From: Lasiosphaeris hirsuta
Lineage: Eukaryota; Ascomycota; Sordariomycetes; Sordariales; Lasiosphaeriaceae
DNA length: 64,000 bases
NCBI GenBank assembly: GCA_030549175.1
Contig: JAUKUA010000006.1
Location: 4,154,001 to 4,218,000, forward strand
Direction of reading: 5' to 3'
Each line of letters starts with the position of its first letter. Positions within the stretch are counted from its first letter, which is position 1. Below, one piece after another: positions 2,279-32,586 of this stretch. The notes under the pieces were generated by a model, which saw only the letters and a program-made list of their open reading frames with translations, searched no databases and had not been told where the DNA came from. The position numbers and the translations under genes are program-made.

Positions 2279-5162
2279 AGGTTAGCGAAGCTGCACTGTG
2301 AAGGAGGGATGCGCCTTGGCGTCGAGATAGCGAGCGATGAACAGTGTCTGGCGTCAACGTCGACGCTTGGGCTCTGGGCTTACACACACCGTACACACAA
2401 AAAGATCAAAGCCCGCGCGTTATCTTGGGCGCCAGGGGTGGGGGTGAACTGGAGTTCTAAGACATGTTTGCTTGCCAAGTCATGACGGTGAGGGAGCAAT
2501 GGCGGCCTCGGCGCAATTGCGGGACGGTTCGGCAGGCTGGCGGAGTGCCAGATCGTTGGGCCGTCCCAAGAGTCGGCGGGGATGGAGGATGGAAAATGGA
2601 ATGTGCCATGCACCCATTCGCAATTTCGCCCTTGTATTCCATATAAGTGGGACGATGTGAATTGGTGATTGCCACACCTCTCCACCGGCATGTTGCGTGC
2701 CCTGCTGCGTACGCGCTGCTGCGTGCCTAAAGTACCGCTGTTGCGATGCACTTGGTTCTGCCAGCAAACCTGGGCCAAGACACTATATTCGCAAACTGGT
2801 AGCAGGTGATCGACGCGCTCCAAGCTGGCGGTGTGAGTCGTGATGCGCGCAGCAACTGGAAAGGCGAGCCGAGCGAGCTTGCTGCAGCTTGTTTGACCGG
2901 CCCCAGTCGAGAGATTCTGGGCCGTCCAAGTCGGGTTGGTCCATCCGTTGCTTGTGCAGGTGGCGATGGCCCTGCAATGTGTCTTCGCCTGTGCCCTCCC
3001 TCGGCATCGCTGAATGTGGTATGCCATCTGGAGCTTCTGCTGGCTGCCCAAGGCAGTTAGGGTCGTTTGTGAGGGGAATGGCGGGCGAATGGCGAGCTTG
3101 CCTTGGACCAAACAAGATGCGTTTGTCCCCCCCTGGACCCTGCTAGGACCCTGTGACCCTGCGACCCTCAAGCGACGCTGTCCAGGATCAATTCATGCAC
3201 GGCTTCGACAGCGATGCAGAAGAAGACGACGAGAGGGGAACTAAAAAAGACGCAAAATGCAGGATGTGGACATGAAGCTGAGAGTGTCAGTGCTGCTGCA
3301 ATTGGCATTCCGATAGAAATGGAGAGACTATGGAAGCCGAACGCCTGGAGCCAACCGCCCGAGCACCTGGGCATTTTGCTGGATTGTTGGATGGAAGAGA
3401 TGGAGGACCCGGAAGCTGCAAGAGGTTGCGACGGGGCGTTCCAGCCAACTGGGACGCGAAGTCCCTGCCACCTGCCGCCTGCCACCTCACAGCGGGGGCC
3501 CCTCTTCCAAGTTTTCTTCCTTCCACCTCTCCGAGTTTTCCATGTTTGTCCTGCCTGTCTTCGATCTTTTGCGTGCTGGGCACACTCCCGCATCGTTTTG
3601 CGGCGCCACCATGCCTGACACCTGCCCGTGCCGCCCAGCTGGATTTGCCCTGTCTCTGATCTTTTCCCTGGCCCCGACTCCTCCCGCCATGGCGACTGCA
3701 GGCGTCCCACGAGCGCTTGCTGCCACCTCGGCCACCCTCGTGCCCCCCTTTTGTCCACAGTTTGCCCACGGCCTGCCCACAAGTTGTCAAACAGCAGTTA
3801 ACGCAGGGGCAGAGGCGAAGGAGGACAGGAACAACACAGCACGACCCCGCTCGACGCACGCTCGGGCATGCTCCGGTCGTGCCCGGGACCTCTGGTCCCC
3901 GACTCGAGATGCAGATGCCGGCGGCAGTCCTGGGTAACTAGTCCCTCGGGTGCGCCCGTGGGCCATTCACGCCGCGACAGTTGGTTCGGCGGGTGTGCAG
4001 TTCTGTGGTTCCGCGGTCCTGCCAGGTTCTGCTAGCGTGGGAGTCCCACCACCCTCAACCAGACTGCTGGGACGGCCGAGTCTTACTCCGCCCTCTAGGC
4101 TCGGTCCGGCATGGCGCTCCTGCGCGCGATAGGCAGCGGAGATGGTGCTCCCAGTGCGCCTGGATGCTCTGTGATATCCGCATTTCTTGATGCGCTGCTG
4201 TGGCTGCTAGCCTGCCTTGGGACAAAGGCAGCAGTCTGGCCCGCCCTCGCCCCCGGGTCGCGAGAGTCTCTCGTCATATTTCCGACTCCAAGTCCTGGTG
4301 CTTTGTTGCGCCTGGAGTGGGACCCGTATCTCGTGCCGTTCAGTTAAGACGTGATACGTGGTATATCACCGCTCTTATAGTCTTTCCGGTGCCTGCACCC
4401 CGCCGACCCTCCGACCCCCGATCCCCGACAGACGAGACCCAAACAACCTACCTAGAGGATCCAGACGAGCCGGCAGCCACCCATCGTTCCCAGACCAAGC
4501 CTCCTTCCCGCAGTTGGGACCCGATCCAGGTTGCACCCACTGCGCCGTCTGCACCCTCATTTCGTCCTCCCTCCTGGGATTGGGCCACTGCCGCAGTCCT
4601 TCCCCAGAACTCCTGCAACCTTCACCCCCTTCAAGTCCCAGGAAACCCTAGGGAGGAAAAAAAGCGAAGCTAGTGCCGTGTCGACACGGAGTGGGACGCA
4701 AGGAACAGCGCAGCCCCTTCACCAATACCCTGCTTCTCCCCCCCCCCCCAAATCTCAACCGTCCTCTCCGATTTTTTTCTTCTTCTGCCCTATTTCTACT
4801 CGCCACCCCGTCTTACCAGACCGCCGGGACCTTACTCGGGCTCATAAGTTCTTCGCAGCCCCAACGCCCCCTTGACCGTGTAGTTGGGACCGTTTATATC
4901 TCACCGCTGAACCCCGCTTGTCTTCTGTGGCGTGAATCTGACTTGGTGTGGGAGCCTCTGATTACATCCCTACAAGTCGCCATCGGGATATAATACACCG
5001 GGACCTCCCTCAGACCAGCAGGGCATGCCACCGACAGCCCTCTTACTAATACCTCGAAACCACTGCCGCGCACCAGGGGCACCAGGGGCACCACCATCTC
5101 TCAACGGATAGCTTCCCCTTTGTAAAAAGAAACAAGCTCGCAAAGAGCTCCCCTCAATCCTA
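2279..5162. other. Long gene-free interval
   Basis: No supported gene. Open frames on either strand up to about 260 codons lack family motifs, show no codon bias and overlap one another. The right half (about 4.3-5.16 kb) is rich in C and T with several pyrimidine runs, as in fungal promoters and long 5' leaders. It probably controls the methyltransferase gene starting at 5163. Confidence 0.5.
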
Positions 5163-6892
5163 ATGAGCTCCAAAAGACCCGGGCCCGGGCGCGGACTCGG
5201 CCGCAGCCGCGGCAAGGACCCCGCATCGCCGCCATCGTCCATCAATACCGAGATTGCCGTCGGCGGCTCCTCCCCCTCTCCCGACGAAGAATCCGAGCTC
5301 TACGCCGCCGTCGAAGCCTCGGCATACCGCCCGCGCACCGGTCCCATGCACCACTACCACATCCCGCCGTCCGCCCCGGCCAGCTCCGCCTCGGCCTCTG
5401 CGACCGAGTCGCGCGGGTCTGGACACGACGGCGACGACGCATCGAGCAGTGGTAGCCATCGCGCGGGGGCGGCAGCCGACGAGGAGGACGCGGACGAGGA
5501 GGACCAGGATGATACTACCCCCTCGGGGGGTAGCTCGGTGCACGCCCATGTGTACGAGGGCGGGCTGCGGTACCACGCGTTCCGCGACGGCAAGTATGCG
5601 TTCCCCAACGACGAGGTGGAGCAGAACCGCGACGATATGAAGCACTCGATGAGTTTGCTGCTCTGCCACGGGGACTACTTTTACGCCCCGATCGAGGAGG
5701 TGCTGGCGGCGGGTGGGGCCGAGGTTTTGGATCTGGGTAAGCTCCCCCCTATCTGATCGCTTACTCAGGGCTGCATTGTCCACCGCTTGTGAGGTTGTTG
5801 GACTGACCCCTGAGTGTTGCGCAAACAGGCACTGGAACGGGCATTTGGGCCATTGAGCGTAAGTGGCTTGCGGGTTTCCCTCCTGTTGGGAATTGAGTTC
5901 GGGGTACGGCAGATGGCCGACACGTAGACGAATGGGAGCCGGCGCGTGTTTCGGGTAGCGGCCTTGTGCCACCCTACCTGCACCGTCCCGGGGGTTCGGT
6001 ACTTTTCGGTATCACGGACCGGCAACCGCGCTGCAGGTCGGCTTTCAGGTCCGGGCCTGGAGGTGGCATGGCCGGACCGGTTCGGCCAATTGAGTAGCAC
6101 GGGTGGCCAGACGAGGAAAGCCAGCTAACAGTTGCCCCAACAGTCGGCGACAAGTACCCCGAGGCCAAGATCACGGGCATCGACCTGTCGCCAATCCAGC
6201 CCAACTTTGTGCCGCAAAACGTCCACTTCTTCGTCGATGACTTTGAGGAAGACTGGGTCGACGCAGACAACAAGTACGACTATATCCACATCCGCCACAC
6301 CCTCTTCTCCATCCGCGACCGCGACCTCCTGTTCCAGCGCGCCTTGCGGTATGTCTCTCTCTCTCTCTCTCCTCTCCCCCTTTTGCCCCCCCCCCCGCCA
6401 TATACTAGTATCTAACCCCTCTGCCCCCGCCCCAGACACCTCAAACCTGGCGGCTACCTCGAGCTCCAAGAGCTGCACTTCGCCCCGCAGTGCGACGACA
6501 ACTCGCTCACCCCGCAGATGCCCTACGCCTTCCGCGACTACATCGCCTTCCTCGACGCGGGCCTTCGCGCGCTCGGGTCCGAGCTGCACGCCGTGCGCAC
6601 GCTGCCCGAGGACCTGCACGCCGCGGGGTTCGAGGACGTCGAGGCGGCCACGCACAAGTGCCCGCTGGGGCTATGGCCACGCGACCGGCGGCTGCGCCTG
6701 TGCGGGCTCTTCCTCCGTACCGCCGTCATGGACGGGCTGCGGGGGCTGAGCCGGCGGCCGCTCATCGCGCTGGGATGGACGCAGTTGCAGATCGAAATGT
6801 TCCTGGTCGATGTGCGTAAGGCCGTTATGGATACTAAGGTGCATGCGTATTTCGGGTTTCATGTGGTTTATGGGCGGAAGCCGCTGGCCTGA
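5163..6892 (+). CDS. LaeA-like SAM-dependent methyltransferase
   Basis: Four exons, 5163-5736, 5829-5858, 6144-6348 and 6436-6892, give 421 residues. The first ATG after a stop is used. Residues 1-125 are low-complexity (Ser, Pro, Asp, Glu). The methyltransferase fold follows: KYAFPNDEVEQNRDD, then motif I LDLGTGTGIWAIE (from residue 189, split over introns 1 and 2), PEAKITGIDLSPIQP, the acidic DYIHIRHTLFSI, and LKPGGYLELQE. This order and wording are those of the LaeA/Methyltransf_23 group of Pezizomycotina, whose members either act with velvet proteins in global regulation or methylate small molecules. No biosynthetic cluster lies beside it, so a specific role cannot be assigned. Intron 2 is 285 nt, unusually long here. 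Intron 3 carries a CT run followed by a C run. Confidence 0.88.
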
Positions 6893-8344
6893 GGCGGCCT
6901 TGACGGTGGCGACGTGTCCTGCGGGGGACGGTTGGAAGGCGTGGGGTTCTGCAACGACATCACGCGCATCACGACCGAAGACACCATACGAAAACGACAT
7001 GCACGAACGTTACGAGACACGATCTAGACTTTTTTCTTCTTTTTGTTCACATCATCCGGAGGCAAGATTTGGATTGTGCATTTGCATTATTAGTACTCAC
7101 GACGGCACCTACGGTCTGTTTGGTCTCACAGGGCGGAACAAGGCCGAATGAGGGGACGGGATGGCATGGGACGGTATGGAACGACCGGCGATCATCATGA
7201 TACCCAGGGAGCACTGTCCGACATGATTGGAGAGCCGGATACATATGGAGCATTTACTGGATGGGCAATGACGGCGGGTCGTTGCGTGTGTTTACAGGGA
7301 CGCGAGTTACATATCAGTGTTTATCGATACCTGGGTAGCCGTTTTGATTCCTGCTGGGAGGGAATAGTTCAGGGGTAATGTGCAGGGCGCTACTTGTTTG
7401 TATCTGCTGTTACACATACACATACCCTCTAGATGAGGTGTGCCAGTGGTGTATGGTGATAATGACACGTCTCCATGGGGAACACTCTACTCATGTCATA
7501 CTGTCCTTGGTCATGTGCTGCCATCTCCGCTGGAGTGCTTCGCTTCCCAGCACAGCACAGGCTGAAATGGGTCCCCGCCCGCAAGGACTCTGACTAGTTC
7601 TCAGCCGGTAAGTATCGACAATGAGTCCCCCCCCCCCCCCCTCTTATCATTTTATGAAGAAAAAGACTAAGATACCTAGGTAGCCATAAAAATAGAAACC
7701 AAAATGGCAAAAGCTCACCGCCCAGCCCCCCTTGGACGGCCCTCTCTACTTTCTTGGGAGAGAGAGGGCGGGCCAGAGGAGGTGGTGGTTACCAAAATCC
7801 CCGGACGGATTTTCCTCGAACGTGAATCGAACTCATAGCCTGGCTATCGAGTCAGGGCTAACGATACTGGCGAGTCTAGTTGTCGTCAAGTCGGCACCCC
7901 CGCCGCTGGGTTATTGTACTCCAGTGACGGGGGTGTTATTTGACAAGAAACTGGACCTCATATATATACCGTCGCTACCGTCTGGACGCCTGCTCGATCG
8001 GTAAAATCCTGGTGCCCGATCTGAGAGGCCCCAGGCTCCCGAATTTCAAGTACAATCCCTATCGGGGGTTTCGCAGCCAGTGAGCTTTTGCCGTCATCGT
8101 TTATTTTTATTTTATTTTCCTTTCCTTTTCCTCTTCGCAGTACCATGGGTCAATGCCAAACACCATCGGCCATCAAACACACAAGAAAAGGTGTCATACC
8201 ACAACCACTCCAGCAGAGCACTAGAAACTAGTCACCACCGGGGCAGCAGCCACCTCTGTGGCAGAACGACATACCGATACGCCTCGGCTTGCTTTTAGTC
8301 CGGTCACCTGCAGCGGCTACTTTGTGGCCGTTTGCCCGGATGTA
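6893..8344. other. Intergenic, no gene seen
   Basis: Between the methyltransferase and the minisatellite I find no coding evidence. A poly-C run lies at about 7627-7641. A B-box-like stretch near 7825-7840 does not fold into a tRNA. Confidence 0.45.
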
Positions 8345-14319: not shown

Positions 14320-14403
14320 GCGCCAGTGGTTTAGTGGTAAAATCCATCGTTGCCATAAAACAGCATATTCGATGGGCCCCGCGTTCGATTCGCGGCTGGC
14401 GCA
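14320..14403 (+). tRNA. tRNA-Gly(GCC): tRNA-Gly (GCC) with a 13-nt intron
   Basis: The acceptor stem GCGCCAG pairs with CTGGCGC and is followed by discriminator A (14403). The D-arm region is TGGTTTAGTGGTAAAA and the T-arm is CCGCGTTCGATTCGCGG. The anticodon stem CATCG/CGATG encloses the loop TTGCCAT, with anticodon GCC at 14352-14354. A 13-nt intron, TAAAACAGCATAT (14356-14368), sits at the canonical place one base after the anticodon. The mature length is 71 nt, as expected for tRNA-Gly. Confidence 0.95.
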
Positions 14404-14677: not shown

Positions 14678-14749
14678 GGTCCGCTGGCTCAATGGTAGAG
14701 CGTCTGACTACGAATCAGGAGGTTCCAGGTTCGAGACCTGGGTGGATCG
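14678..14749 (+). tRNA. tRNA-Arg(ACG): tRNA-Arg (ACG)
   Basis: The 72-nt gene has acceptor strands GGTCCGC and GTGGATC (two G-T pairs), D-arm GGCTCAATGGTAGAGC, anticodon arm TCTGA-CTACGAA-TCAGG with anticodon ACG (read as ICG after deamination), and T-arm CCAGGTTCGAGACCTGG. No intron. It lies 274 nt downstream of tRNA-Gly on the same strand; each is presumably transcribed alone by RNA polymerase III. Confidence 0.95.
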
Positions 14750-24296: not shown

Positions 24297-24912
24297 CGGG
24301 CATGAGATATGGGCATGGCGGGTTTACGGGTTCGGAGGGGCATGGGTGAGGCTGCTTGTTGCACCCTTTTTTTTAAAAAGCATGGAACGGCGTTGGTGGG
24401 TTGGGTTTTGTGTCTTGGGTTTGGGGTAGATGGTCTATGAATACAAGCGCATTGTCTCTGCGTATACTCGAGTAAGCATCTCCTTGGCTCGGTCTGTATT
24501 ATCAGATATTAGAACCGGTCCAGCGGGTGTCATACATGTATCGACTAGCGTTGAAAGCATTGTTGATGTTGAAGCGGTTGAGCTACGCTCTGGTTTTGTG
24601 CCGGATGGTATTTGGATCATTGGTGATGGCAGCTGGGAGTGTCACTGAATGTGTGCACCATGGTAATTAGGCAATGCTCGCCGAGTTATTCGACCGGGAG
24701 GCTTGCTCGAGTCCTTCACTGTGCTTGTTCAACATCAACCCGGATTTCATGTTCATAACATCTCAGGTGCACGAGTGGAGGGTCGAAGTCCGGAGTACCG
24801 CCGCTCGAGGGGCGTCTTTGAGTGATGGCTTGCCAAGTTGCTGGATTAGTGGCACAGGCAGCCCATTCGGCCGTCTATGCACGTGCTGTGGCTGCGGCTT
24901 TGGCTGCGCCTG

Positions 24913-25872
24913 CACTGCAATTTTAGCCCAGCCGGAGGGTCCATGGGTGCCACGTGGGTGCCTGGATGCTTGACCGACGCACTGCACAGGTGGAAGGTCG
25001 AACTGCGCACAGTCCGCAGAATCCGATCGAGACTCCGACGATTCGGAACCACGACAAGCCCCCCGAACCGCGTCGGTCGCGAGGCGAAGATCACCCCTCT
25101 GATGCGCGATGAATTATTTGAACAGCTAGCAAAACGACCCGATATGTTTCGATACGAGATTATCCATTTCCTGTACAATAGCTTCGGCGTCGAGGTGTCC
25201 CCGGCCACCATCTCTCGAACCCAGAAGACTGAAAGATGGACCAGAAAGACAAACGGCCACGTAGCGAAACAACGGAACCCAGACCTACGGGAACTGTACC
25301 TCTATAAACTCTCTGACTGCCGCTTTTATCAGCTAGTATTTATTGACGAGTTGGTCTGTGACAAACGGAGTGGGCATCAACGCCAGGGCTGGGCGCCGAG
25401 CGGAGTAACGCCTGTGCAGGTTGACGAGTTCAACCGCGAACGACGGTTTCAGATCCTTGCTGCGTATACACAGAATGGCGTTGAGTTAGCGCGTATCTAC
25501 CCTGGATCCACTGATGCCGTTATATTTGAAGATTTTATTGAACAGCTGCTGCTCCATTGTAGCAAATGGCCGGAGCCGAATTCGGTCCTTGTTATAGATA
25601 ATGCTTCCATCCATCGCTCAGAAAGGCTCGAGCAAATATGCGCTGACGCCGGTGTAAGACTACTTAAACTGGCGCCCTACTTGCCAGACATGAACCCGAT
25701 CGAAGAGCTTTTTGCAGAGATCAAAACATACGTCAAACAGCAGCGGCACAACCACGCCGATCTGTTTGAGACGTTCTTGAGGATGTGTGTTGATATTGTG
25801 GAGTCTCGGGCTGTAAGCGCTGAAGGTCACTTTCGTCATTCTGGCATTTCCATTGAGTGCCCTTCAGAATAG
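24913..25872 (+). mobile_element. Tc1/IS630-type DNA transposon, truncated, transposase frame open
   Basis: A left terminal repeat CACTGCAATTTTAGCCC starts at 24913. The open frame from ATG 24943 to 25872 encodes about 309 residues of a DDE transposase. Landmarks are RIRSRLRRFGTTT, SVSPATISRT-like helix-turn-helix wording (VEVSPATISR), FIDELVCDKR with the first catalytic Asp, VLVIDNASIHRSERL with the second, and PDMNPIEELFAEIKTYVKQ with the Glu 34 residues further on (DD34E). The C-terminal SAEGHFRHSGISIE is the usual end. The N-terminal DNA-binding helices, about 40-50 residues in intact relatives as I recall them, are missing: the terminal repeat runs almost straight into the middle part. 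No matching right terminal repeat is visible in the next 150 bases. The copy is therefore probably immobile, although its frame has no stop. Confidence 0.85.
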
Positions 25873-27966: not shown

Positions 27967-28829
27967 CTACCCCCTTCCGCTAAACGTAGCACTGATGGTG
28001 CCGCTGTTGACTCCTACCTGCTGGCCTTGGTTATGACTTCCAAAAGTGACTGTGGGTCCCTGGGTTGCTTGCGCATTTGCGGCCGCTGTCTGGATTGCTG
28101 AGAGCAGGCCTTCAAACACCTTGCGCGATTCACCAAGGGCTTTCTTCTCCATCGCAACCTGTCTGGTCGCACCAGTCTGATCGGCATCCGTTTCGCCTTC
28201 GTCTGGTTCCGCTAGGGTAAGCGCTTCCAGCTTAGCACCAATCTCGGCTGACTGATCGTTTGCCGCTGCGATTGCATCGTTAACCGCCGCCTCCTTCGTC
28301 GATATCATCGTCTTGATCACTTCAGCCGCTTGCGCCTGCTGCAGGGAGCTGTGTCTAGAAATTATTAGTGCCTATCCGTCTGGAGCTAAACTGTAACCTA
28401 CAAGGTCGCAATGCTCGCTACCGAAGTCAGCGTGATGTTGCAGTTCTGAAGTTGCTCCGACAGGGATTTGATGTGGCCCTGTCTGAAGACGCCCAGGGTT
28501 ACGCGGTCTCGCCAGGAGAGTGTTCCATCCGTGCTGTGCCGGGTCCAGCGATCGAGAGAGGTCCTGAATCTTTCACAGGAAGTTTTGCAGGAAGTTGTCG
28601 CGGCCTTCGACTGGGTAGTAACGGCATCGCCCAGCGATTTCCACTGCGGATCTGTCACGGCCTGAACCGAGGCGAGAGCAAGGCCCACTGACTGGAGATC
28701 GGTGGTGAGCGCCTTCACGGCATCAGGTGCGTCGGCAATATTCTGTAGATCCTTTATCAAGAGTCGCACGCAGTGCAGCGTTGGTCCAACGATGCCTACG
28801 ACGCCGGCTGTGATACTGAAGGGATCCAT
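27967..28829 (-). CDS. HeLo-like-domain protein ending in a sigma-type amyloid motif (putative cell-death effector)
   Basis: Two exons on the minus strand, 28829-28402 and 28348-27967, encode 269 residues; the 53-nt intron runs GTAGGT to ACACAG. Upstream in-frame codons exist, but MDPFSITAGVVGIVGPTLHC is the standard start of the fungal Helo_like_N/STAND N-terminal domain, so I chose 28829. Residues 1-140 form this helical domain (DLQNIADAPDAVKALTTDLQ, RDRVTLGVFRQGHIKSLSEQ). A helical linker follows (MISTKEAAVNDAIAAANDQ, EKKALGESRKVFEGLLSAI). The last 30 residues contain FGSHNQGQQVGVNSGTISA, which matches the start of the neighbouring NLR almost residue for residue and resembles the sigma motif of fungal NLR/effector pairs. 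In those systems the motif folds as an amyloid templated by the activated NLR and the N-terminal domain attacks membranes. That role is inferred here. Confidence 0.85.
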
Positions 28830-29025
28830 CGCGAGAAAATGGGTTAAAGGTTCTGTGGATTTGCACACCAGCCAGGATGCAAACACCTCATTGGGACTAA
28901 GATTGGGCACCAATCCCGTGCGGCTGAATCGATTGCCTGCGGCCACACAGCCGTAAGAGTTAGAAAGCATTCCTACTTCGTCACCATCGAGAATCGACTG
29001 TTCAGCAATTGTCCAACGGCACATA
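28830..29025. promoter_or_regulatory. Divergent promoter of the effector/NLR pair
   Basis: Only 196 nt separate the two start codons, which point away from each other. Both genes must draw on this interval for promoter and leader sequence, so they are likely co-expressed. I see no confident TATA box. Confidence 0.6.
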
Positions 29026-32000
29026 ATGCAATCCACGTCTTTCGGATCCGGAAACCAGGGCCAGCAGGTGGGGCAGAACTATGGGACGATCAATGCGGAG
29101 TTCCACCTCCCGCCGGGTAACGTTAGCGCTGTCCGTGCTTGCCCAGCCCATGCTGACGCTCCTGCAGAACAAGCCGAAACTCCGCCAGCCCCCTCCGCGA
29201 CCATCCCCTTCTCCCCCGATCCCGATTTTGTCAACCGTGGAGACATTCTCGACCAAATCGACCAGCGATGTTCCAAGCCGGCTGCTCGCGTAGCCCTCGT
29301 GGGCCTCGGCGGGGTTGGCAAGTCGCAGCTTGCCATCGAGTTCGCTCACCGAATCGCCGCGCGGCAGCCTGACATATGGGTATTCTGGGTCCACGCCGGC
29401 ACGCAGGCGCGCGTCGAGGAGGGGTTCAGGACGATTGCCGACGCTGTCAAGCTGCCGGGCCGGAACCAACCAAAAGCCGATATCCCGCAGCTTGTGTACA
29501 ACTGGTTGTCTAACGAACGGAACGGCAGATGGGTCACGATCCTTGACAGCGCCGACGACCGCGACGTGTTCTATAGCGCAAATAGTACCCATGGCCCGGC
29601 CACGGGCGATGCGCGCGACAGGCGGTCGTTTGCGACATACTTACCACAGAGCCGAAATGGATCGGTCGTGGTTACAACACGCAACAAGGACTTGGCTTTT
29701 AGGCTGACCGGGCGCCGCCAAAACATGATCGAAGTCGGGCCGATGGCACAGGCGGACGCCCTCACGCTCCTAGAGAGAAAGCTGGGATCTCTCCCGGATA
29801 CTACCGTGGCGACTGATCTTGTACAGGCGCTCGACCTTGTTCCGCTGGCCATCAGCCAAGCTGCCGCGTACATCCAGGCAAGGGCGCCGCGGAGCTCACC
29901 TGAGAAATACCTGGTCGAGTTCCGGGAGAGTGAGCGCAAAAAAAGCAGACTTTTGGCGTACGATGGTGGTGACCTACGGCGGGATGGAGACGCGTCGAAT
30001 GCGATTCTGACGACATGGACAATATCATTCGACCATATCTATTTAAAGCGGCAATCTGCGGCGGATCTCCTGTCGCTTATGAGCTTTTTCGACCGGCAAG
30101 GTATCCCTGGGTGGGTTTTGAAACCTTCCAGAACTACGGAAGACACAACGCAAGCAAGATGTCTAGACGAGGCCGGAGAACGGGAATCGGACGATGACAG
30201 CAGCGCCACCAATAGTGGCACGGATGATGGTACAGACGACGATATAGATGGCGGATTCGAAGATGATGTGGCGATGTTAAGGAACTACTGTCTTATCACC
30301 GCGGACAAGGAAGGGGACGAGTTTGAGATGCACGGGCTCGTGCAGCTGTCGACGAGGAAGTGGCTCGAAGCGACTGGGCAACAGGAGACGTTCAAGCAGC
30401 AGTGTATCAAGCGAATGGCAGCGTCATTCCCGACGGGGGAGTACGAGAACTGGGAGACGTGTCGGAGACTCTTCGCACACGTTCAAGTGGCGCTTGGTTA
30501 CCGACCAAGCGGAGAAACAGTGGAAACATGGGCGACTCTGTTATATAACGGAGGATGGTATGCATTGTCACAAGGGAGATACGACATTGCACATGAAATG
30601 GCAGGCAAATCGAGGAAGGCCCACGAGAAGAGGCTAGGAAAGGAGAATACCGCAACGTTAGCCAGCATATCATTGCTTGCTTGGGTCCTTTCGAACCAAG
30701 GCCGGTGGGAGGAGGCCGAGAAGCTGTTTGTACAGGTGATGGAGACGAACAAGACCAAGCTCAGGGCCGATCACCCAGACACACTGACGAGTATGGCCAA
30801 CCTTGCGTCGACATTTTGGAACCAGGGCCGGTGGGAGGAGGCCGAGAAGCTGTTTGTACAGGTGATGGAGACGAGCAAGACCAAGCTCGGGGCCGATCAC
30901 CCAGACACATTGACGAGTATGGCCAACCTTGCGTCGACATATAGGAAACAGGGCCGGTGGGAGGAGGCCGAGAAGCTGGAGGTACAGGTGATGGAGACTC
31001 GTAAGACCAAGCTCGGGGCCGATCACCCAGACACATTGACGAGTATGGCCAACCTTGCGTCGACATTTTGGAACCAGGGCCGGTGGGAGGAGGCCGAGAA
31101 GCTGTTTGTACAGGTGATGGAGACGAGCAAGACCAAGCTTGGGGCCGATCACCCAGACACATTGACGAGTATGGCCAACCTTGCGTCGACATATAGGAAC
31201 CAGGGCCGGTGGGAGGAGGCCGAGAAGCTGTTTGTACAGGTGATGGAGACGAGCAAGACCAAGCTCGGGGCCGATCACCCAGATACACTGACGAGTATGG
31301 CTAACCTTGCGTCGACATTTTGGAACCAGGGCCGGTGGGAGGAGGCCGAGAAGCTGTTTGTACAGGTGATGGAGACGAGCAAGACCAAGCTCGGGGCCGA
31401 TCACCCAGACACATTGACGAGTATGGCCAACCTTGCGTCGACATATAGGAACCAGGGCCGGTGGGAGGAGGCCGAGAAGCTGTTTGTACAGGTGATGGAG
31501 ACGAGCAAGACCAAGCTCGGGGCCGATCACCCAGACACACTGACGAGTATGGCTAACCTTGCGTCGACATTTTGGAACCAGGGCCGGTGGGAGGAGGCCG
31601 AGAAGCTGGAGGTACAGGTGATGGAGACTCGTAAGACCAAGCTCGGGGCCGATCACCCAGACACATTGACGAGTATGGCCAACCTTGCGTCGACATATAG
31701 GAAACAGGGCCGGTGGGAGGAGGCCGAGAAGCTGTTTGTACAGGTGATGGAGACGAGCAAGACCAAGCTCGGGGCCGATCACCCAGACACATTGACGAGT
31801 ATGGCCAACCTTGCGTCGACATATAGGAAACAGGGCCGGTGGGAGGAGGCCGAGAAGCTGGAGGTACAGGTGATGGAGACTCGTAAGACCAAGCTCGGGG
31901 CCGATCACCCAGACACATTGACGAGTATGGCCAACCTTGCGTCGACATATAGGAAACAGGGCCGGTGGGAGGAGGCCGAGAAGCTGGAGGTACAGGTGAT

Positions 32001-32586
32001 GGAGACGAGCAAGACCAAGCTCGGGGCCGATCACCCTTCTACACTGACGAGTATGGCTAACCTTGCGTCGACATTTTGGAACCAGGGCCGGTGGGAGGAG
32101 GCCGAGAAGCTGGAGGTACAGGTGATGGAGACTCGTAAGACCAAGCTCGGGGCCGATCACCCTTCTACATTGACGAGTATGGCCAACCTTGCGTCGACAT
32201 ATAGGAAACAGGGCCGGTGGGAGGAGGCCGAGAAGCTGGAGGTACAGGTGATGGAGACGAGCAAGACCAAGCTCGGGGCCGATCACCCAGACACATTGAC
32301 GAGTATGGCCAACCTTGCGTCGACATATAGGAAACAGGGCCGGTGGGAGGAGGCCGAGAAGCTGGAGGTACAGGTGATGGAGACGAGCAAGACCAAGCTC
32401 GGGGCCGATCACCCACACACACTGACGATCATAAACAACCTCGCTTTTACTTGGAAAGGTCAAGGTCGACGCGTAGATGCTCTAGCATTGATGGAGGACT
32501 GTGCCCAGGCTCGGCGGCGAGTGCTTGGGGAAGAGCATCCACACACGCTATCGTCTTTGGCTACCGTTGCCAGGTGGAGTGGCTAG
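29026..32586 (+). CDS. NLR immune-type receptor: sigma-like motif, NB-ARC, TPR repeats
   Basis: A single exon encodes 1186 residues. Residues 5-25 (SFGSGNQGQQVGQNYGTIN) are a short amyloid-type motif shared with the C-terminus of the divergent neighbour. Residues 68-440 are an NB-ARC module: P-loop GLGGVGKS at 93-100, Walker B RWVTILDSADD near 169-178, sensor GSVVVTTRNKDLA near 212-224, LDLVPLAISQAAAYI near 269-283, and an MHD-like EMHGLVQLSTRKW at 434-446. An acidic linker (DDDSSATNSGTDDGTDDD) lies near 389-406. From residue about 516 the protein is TPR: one divergent unit, then 14 close copies of a 42-residue unit starting QGRWEEAEKL (residues 558 on), then a divergent last unit ending ARWSG. 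Such receptors sense non-self or pathogen cues and trigger a partner effector. The frame is intact despite the repeats. Confidence 0.93.
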   Translation: MQSTSFGSGNQGQQVGQNYGTINAEFHLPPGNVSAVRACPAHADAPAEQAETPPAPSATIPFSPDPDFVNRGDILDQIDQRCSKPAARVALVGLGGVGKSQLAIEFAHRIAARQPDIWVFWVHAGTQARVEEGFRTIADAVKLPGRNQPKADIPQLVYNWLSNERNGRWVTILDSADDRDVFYSANSTHGPATGDARDRRSFATYLPQSRNGSVVVTTRNKDLAFRLTGRRQNMIEVGPMAQADALTLLERKLGSLPDTTVATDLVQALDLVPLAISQAAAYIQARAPRSSPEKYLVEFRESERKKSRLLAYDGGDLRRDGDASNAILTTWTISFDHIYLKRQSAADLLSLMSFFDRQGIPGWVLKPSRTTEDTTQARCLDEAGERESDDDSSATNSGTDDGTDDDIDGGFEDDVAMLRNYCLITADKEGDEFEMHGLVQLSTRKWLEATGQQETFKQQCIKRMAASFPTGEYENWETCRRLFAHVQVALGYRPSGETVETWATLLYNGGWYALSQGRYDIAHEMAGKSRKAHEKRLGKENTATLASISLLAWVLSNQGRWEEAEKLFVQVMETNKTKLRADHPDTLTSMANLASTFWNQGRWEEAEKLFVQVMETSKTKLGADHPDTLTSMANLASTYRKQGRWEEAEKLEVQVMETRKTKLGADHPDTLTSMANLASTFWNQGRWEEAEKLFVQVMETSKTKLGADHPDTLTSMANLASTYRNQGRWEEAEKLFVQVMETSKTKLGADHPDTLTSMANLASTFWNQGRWEEAEKLFVQVMETSKTKLGADHPDTLTSMANLASTYRNQGRWEEAEKLFVQVMETSKTKLGADHPDTLTSMANLASTFWNQGRWEEAEKLEVQVMETRKTKLGADHPDTLTSMANLASTYRKQGRWEEAEKLFVQVMETSKTKLGADHPDTLTSMANLASTYRKQGRWEEAEKLEVQVMETRKTKLGADHPDTLTSMANLASTYRKQGRWEEAEKLEVQVMETSKTKLGADHPSTLTSMANLASTFWNQGRWEEAEKLEVQVMETRKTKLGADHPSTLTSMANLASTYRKQGRWEEAEKLEVQVMETSKTKLGADHPDTLTSMANLASTYRKQGRWEEAEKLEVQVMETSKTKLGADHPHTLTIINNLAFTWKGQGRRVDALALMEDCAQARRRVLGEEHPHTLSSLATVARWSG
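30697..32460 (+). repeat. Fourteen tandem 126-bp TPR-coding units
   Basis: Units start every 126 bp at 30697, 30823, 30949 and so on to 32335. Units 2-13 are almost identical at DNA level. Differences cluster at codons 11 (TTT Phe or GAG Glu), 18 (AGC Ser or CGT Arg), 28 (GAC Asp or TCT Ser) and 40-42 (TTTTGGAAC, TATAGGAAC or TATAGGAAA). Silent changes are few (Leu TTG/CTG, Ala GCC/GCT). The first unit has AAC at codon 18, and unit 14 diverges at its end. Confidence 0.97.

Follow-up and report, generated by a model that had tools for sequence, protein, structure and literature searches.

A divergent effector/NLR gene pair with a shared PP motif in Lasiosphaeris hirsuta, probably of the HELLP/PNT1 type

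The gene pair and its gene models

The window analyzed here is a 64,000-nucleotide stretch of the Lasiosphaeris hirsuta genome (C11:4154001-4218000; assembly of 44.4 Mb in 14 contigs) with a gene content typical of fungi. At positions 27967-32586 it contains a minus-strand effector gene and a plus-strand NLR gene in divergent orientation. The coordinates, orientation, and 196-nt gap given by an earlier sequence-only reading of this DNA are correct. The features of the locus are listed below.

27967..28829, minus strand: HELLP-like effector gene, 271 aa, in two exons (28402-28829 and 27967-28354)
28355..28401, minus strand: predicted 47-nt intron of the effector gene, ORF nt 429-475, from the comparison of splice models
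27988..28044, minus strand: PP motif at the effector C-terminus, residues 247-265 (Ses_B match 27991-28044)
28830..29025, no strand: divergent intergenic stretch, 196 nt from start codon to start codon
29026..32586, plus strand: PNT1-like NLR gene with PP motif, NB-ARC domain, and TPR array, from the ORF and domain matches
29041..29097, plus strand: PP motif at the NLR N-terminus, residues 6-24 (Ses_B match 29041-29094)
29117..29167, plus strand: predicted stop-free 51-nt intron of the NLR gene, ORF nt 92-142, in the phase of the published pnt1 intron
29287..29883, plus strand: NB-ARC domain, residues 88-286 of the unspliced ORF (PF00931, 29.7 bits; cut-off 23.5)
30693..32428, plus strand: TPR array of 13.8 near-identical 126-nt units, from repeat analysis (TPR_10 matches 16 stretches)

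The minus-strand gene is interrupted by its intron in the table of open reading frames, and its model was corrected to two exons. Six splice models keep the frame. The chosen one was picked by its splice signals, which were assessed together with the branch point against the general consensus, and by its agreement with published hellp. The predicted intron combines the donor GTAGGT, a branch-like CACTAATAA, and the acceptor CTAG, giving a length of 47 nt and a 271-aa protein. Exon 1 contains a match to PF17111 (49.0 bits; cut-off 27.2), which is currently named PigL_N in Pfam and is termed HeLo-like in PMC9815663; by prediction, the domain may adopt an MLKL-like four-helix fold. When exon 1 was searched against the genome, six places were found, with the window at 305.8 bits and the runner-up at 24.4 bits. 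Other HeLo-like domains are present in the genome, since the broader PF17111 profile returns 15 rows.

The adjoining gene encodes a receptor with an NB-ARC domain and TPRs, as recognized by PF00931 and TPR_10. It is 1186 aa long as a single ORF and 1169 aa long after removal of the predicted intron, an in-frame stop-free segment through which the ORF probably reads. Of 15 anchored TPR units, the first 13 were compared; their mean pairwise DNA identity is 94.2%. Among these, 13 of the 42 codons vary, seven with a change of residue (at unit positions 11, 18, 23, 28, 40, 41, and 42) and six only silently. Summed over all pairs, there are 242 residue-changing and 158 silent codon differences; these are plain counts and do not test for positive selection. 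The repeats of fungal NLRs have been described as highly conserved internally, polymorphic in number, and under selection at a few positions (PMC4986451), and the number of pnt1 TPRs ranges from 4 to 10 across Podospora anserina isolates (PMC7885112).

A DDE_3 transposase ORF is located about 2 kb from the pair (24877-25869, plus strand; 90.3 bits). The window also contains two predicted plus-strand tRNA genes, Met (cat) at 14320-14403 and Arg (acg) at 14678-14749.

The shared segment and its motif class

The near-identity of the effector end and the NLR start, which the sequence-only reading had pointed out, is borne out by alignment. The segments FGSHNQGQQVGVNSGTISA (effector residues 247-265) and FGSGNQGQQVGQNYGTINA (NLR residues 6-24) are identical at 15 of 19 positions. 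A local BLOSUM62 alignment of the last 60 effector residues with the first 60 NLR residues scores 80, a value reached by none of 20,000 paired shuffles (mean 23.9, maximum 52). As the DNA beneath the shared segment is identical at only 37 of 57 positions, it looks unlike a very recent DNA copy. The motif appears better kept in protein than in DNA, as selection would give, a single pair being no proof of this.

Both segments match the PP motif. This motif is RHIM-like and has the core NxGxQxGxN (PMC9815663), which is found in the effector as NQGQQVGQN and in the NLR as NQGQQVGVN. In PMC8086366, the PP set was drawn from the Pfam profile Ses_B and the sigma set from NACHT_sigma. With Ses_B, the 32-aa effector peptide scores 25.0 bits, the 44-aa NLR piece 21.4 bits, and the exon-2 ORF 21.0 bits, the curated cut-off being 23.2 bits. 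Genome-wide, the effector motif scores 23.4 bits and is above the cut-off, while the NLR motif scores 20.6 bits and is below it, which was counted against the HELLP/PNT1 reading. Ses_B also matches one further place, on C10, with 15.5 bits, and one of 14 control genomes gave a match, under the cut-off. In the profile check suggested earlier, the two segments are thus both reported by Ses_B, with the NLR side under the cut-off.

The sigma class that had been proposed is not supported. The sigma profile PF17106 has no match in the window, and on the isolated motif pieces none was reported at E<=1. Across the genome it matches six places, two of which are above the cut-off and both on C8; among control genomes, one was matched, under the cut-off. 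The C8 genes form a positive control, matching PF17106 with 55.4 and 44.6 bits and giving no Ses_B match at E<=0.01. Sigma is defined by repeats of GxGxQFNxx and GGTQNINT (PMC3321046); these submotifs are visible in the C8 effector (GSGLQFNAPGGTQNNNT) and absent from both window segments. A signaling pair of the SesA/SesB/Het-eN type would also share a Gly/Asn/Gln-rich motif between effector C-terminus and NLR N-terminus, and the matching Pfam profile bears the name of SesB. It is this profile name that is misleading, and the behavior of PF17106 and the missing submotifs leave a sigma pair extremely improbable. The HET-s profile PF11558 matches two places in the genome, on C12 (52.1 bits) and C1 (17.2 bits), both outside the window.

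The core reads G-Q-Q-V-G in both partners, such that one normally hydrophobic position is polar; this was also counted against the HELLP/PNT1 reading. What PP and RHIM have in common is described as a G-phi-Q-phi-G core (PMC7885112), given as LQL in PMC3321046, and neither partner has it. It was not treated as defining because the PP definition NxGxQxGxN (PMC9815663) omits the requirement. The glutamine at the same core position in both partners might reflect an amyloid barcode that changed jointly and is insulated from other PP/RHIM amyloids, which we consider rather unlikely. If true, the joint change would provide a natural matched pair for finding determinants of seeding specificity.

Comparison with hellp/pnt1 and related loci

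The effector gene is closely comparable to hellp of P. anserina. HELLP is a 271-aa protein whose gene is interrupted once, by a 47-bp intron at ORF nt 429-475 (PMC7885112); the effector described here has equal length, intron length, and intron place, the splice site being predicted. Four published hellp primer sites were found at the same codons as in P. anserina (PMC7885112), with 21 of 23 nt matching at codon 1, 19 of 21 at codon 171, 16 of 21 at codon 214, and 17 of 20 at the 3' end. It follows that the stretches between these sites have neither gained nor lost nucleotides on balance. At all four sites the DNA differs from hellp. In P. anserina, as in the window, the two genes are adjacent and the effector combines a HeLo-like domain with a C-terminal PP motif (PMC7885112). 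The novelty implied by the sequence-only reading is thus not upheld, as hellp/pnt1 is already a unit of two genes composed in the same way.

The receptor is more diverged. PNT1 combines an N-terminal PP motif with NB-ARC and TPRs, and its gene has one intron, of 54 bp, at nt 95-148 (PMC7885112). The NLR shares these domains and, by prediction, one early short intron of the same phase, with 51 nt at nt 92-142. Its predicted length is about 1169 aa versus 971 aa for PNT1. The N-terminus has diverged from that of PNT1: the first Phe of the motif is one codon earlier than in the published pnt1 primer, and two pnt1 primer sites are unrecognizable in the NLR (best ungapped matches 12/24 and 12/22), which was counted against the reading. 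Orthology with PNT1 is therefore suggested by architecture, adjacency, and intron phase.

Several other systems are built on similar lines. The hellp/sbp/pnt1 cluster of Chaetomium globosum likewise comprises a PP motif, a HeLo-like effector, and an NLR, but additionally includes the gene of the lipase SBP, which also carries the motif (PMC5485727, PMC7885112). In the present genome, no third PP-motif gene of this kind was found by the Ses_B scan, which may overlook split or weak motifs. In sesA/sesB/het-eN of Nectria haematococca, a short motif at the end of the effector recurs at the start of the NLR as it does here, but the motif class and effector domains are different and the receptor is of the NACHT type with ankyrin repeats (PMC3321046). 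The model for het-S/nwd2 of P. anserina also invokes receptor-to-effector amyloid templating; unlike the window pair, that system uses HET-s repeats, a HeLo domain, and a NACHT/WD receptor. HELLP, PNT1, and the PP motif are all absent from the main text of PMC12258605.

Related genes occur elsewhere in the genome. The C8 sigma pair (C8:5312001-5322000) consists of a minus-strand lipase-like ORF at 4291-5424, whose C-terminal NACHT_sigma motif is the one scoring 55.4 bits, and a divergent plus-strand gene with an N-terminal sigma motif at 6057-6281 (44.6 bits) and ankyrin repeats downstream. The single ORF scanned between them (6481-6915) matches no Pfam family. C12 encodes a HET-S homologue (C12:177501-187500, 4137-5096) with HeLo (130.9 bits) and HET-s prion (48.9 bits) domains, and no NLR-like ORF was seen by eye in this 10-kb stretch.

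The remaining loci are receptor-like. On C7 (C7:197501-207500), an NB-ARC/TPR NLR at 2963-7012 is 45-49% identical to the window NLR. Immediately before it lies an in-frame segment that by eye resembles a HET domain; the gene would thus join an effector part to a receptor core like that of the window NLR. On C1, a lipase-like ORF is followed by an NB-ARC/TPR ORF (5770890 to about 5775024). Compared with the window NLR, the TPR units of this receptor have a mean DNA identity of 88.4% and its NB-ARC part a protein identity of about 27%, so that TPR repeats look to have been exchanged between the two. A decayed PNT1-like N-terminus is found upstream of the C1 lipase and another nearby on the minus strand. 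C10 contains a broken PNT1-like copy with stops (C10:3337501-3347500, about 4489-5606), a short piece of which aligns to the motif region. No effector match was found in the 10-kb stretches around the stop-containing PNT1-like pieces on C1 and C10. Receptor copies hence occur and decay without an adjoining effector, another point counted against the HELLP/PNT1 reading.

Proposed function and alternatives

The pair is very probably a HELLP/PNT1-type unit, in which an NB-ARC/TPR receptor likely communicates by amyloid signaling with a HeLo-like effector through the PP motif common to both. This reading builds on the open frames and their domain matches, on a shared motif that fits the PP rather than the sigma profile, and on an effector gene that agrees with hellp in its length, its intron, and the positions of the primer sites. 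By analogy with the published work on Podospora, ligand binding by the NLR would likely lead to its oligomerization, and the oligomer would seed amyloid folding of the C-terminal tail of the effector. The folded tail is predicted to free the helical bundle of the effector, which would then injure the membrane of its own cell. For P. anserina, prion formation by HELLP(214-271) and PNT1(1-31) has been published, together with activation of HELLP by these segments and induced cell death (PMC7885112); a prion state and killing may be expected here on the same grounds. The mechanism put forward by the sequence-only reading is accordingly retained in part: receptor-to-effector amyloid signaling is supported by homology, and the adjoining NLR and effector with their common motif, as well as the HeLo-like domain of the effector, agree with it, while its sigma class and incompatibility role find no support.

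Heterokaryon incompatibility would be a form of allorecognition: cells of different strains would die after fusion owing to natural variants of the prion or the receptor. The het-S/nwd2 system employs hypervariable-type repeat arrays and amyloid pairs in this way, and a synthetic incompatibility can be derived from HELLP (PMC7885112). Yet the Podospora authors state in that study that they draw no such inference for HELLP, and the single haploid assembly used here shows no alleles; we regard this role as unlikely. Less likely still, to the point of being highly improbable, is that the pair is decaying or silent and the likeness of its motifs an ancestral leftover with no present signaling. The broken PNT1-like copies elsewhere in the genome and the polar core residue would fit such decay. 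Against it, both frames are open, the NB-ARC and HeLo-like domains are above their cut-offs, the effector has kept the same length and intron as its Podospora counterpart, and the motif is more conserved in protein (15/19) than in DNA (37/57).

As a HELLP/PNT1-type unit, the pair is largely expected, given how closely it matches the worked-out hellp/pnt1 of P. anserina, and the general picture is unaltered by it. It provides a further example of the two-gene unit, with an effector of equal length and intron place. In addition, as a matched pair whose PP motifs are polar at one core position, it is material for testing seeding rules that are partly common to mammalian RHIM. The genome also contains sigma-type and HET-s-type genes, which makes it a natural case of coexisting amyloid pathways. 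The three systems of P. anserina show no cross-seeding by experiment (PMC7885112). When the motif ends of three effectors were scored against those of two NLRs within the present genome, purely as a comparison of sequences, the PP/PP pair reached 80, the sigma/sigma pair 105, and the remaining four combinations 19-28, which looks as parallel, non-crossing pathways would.
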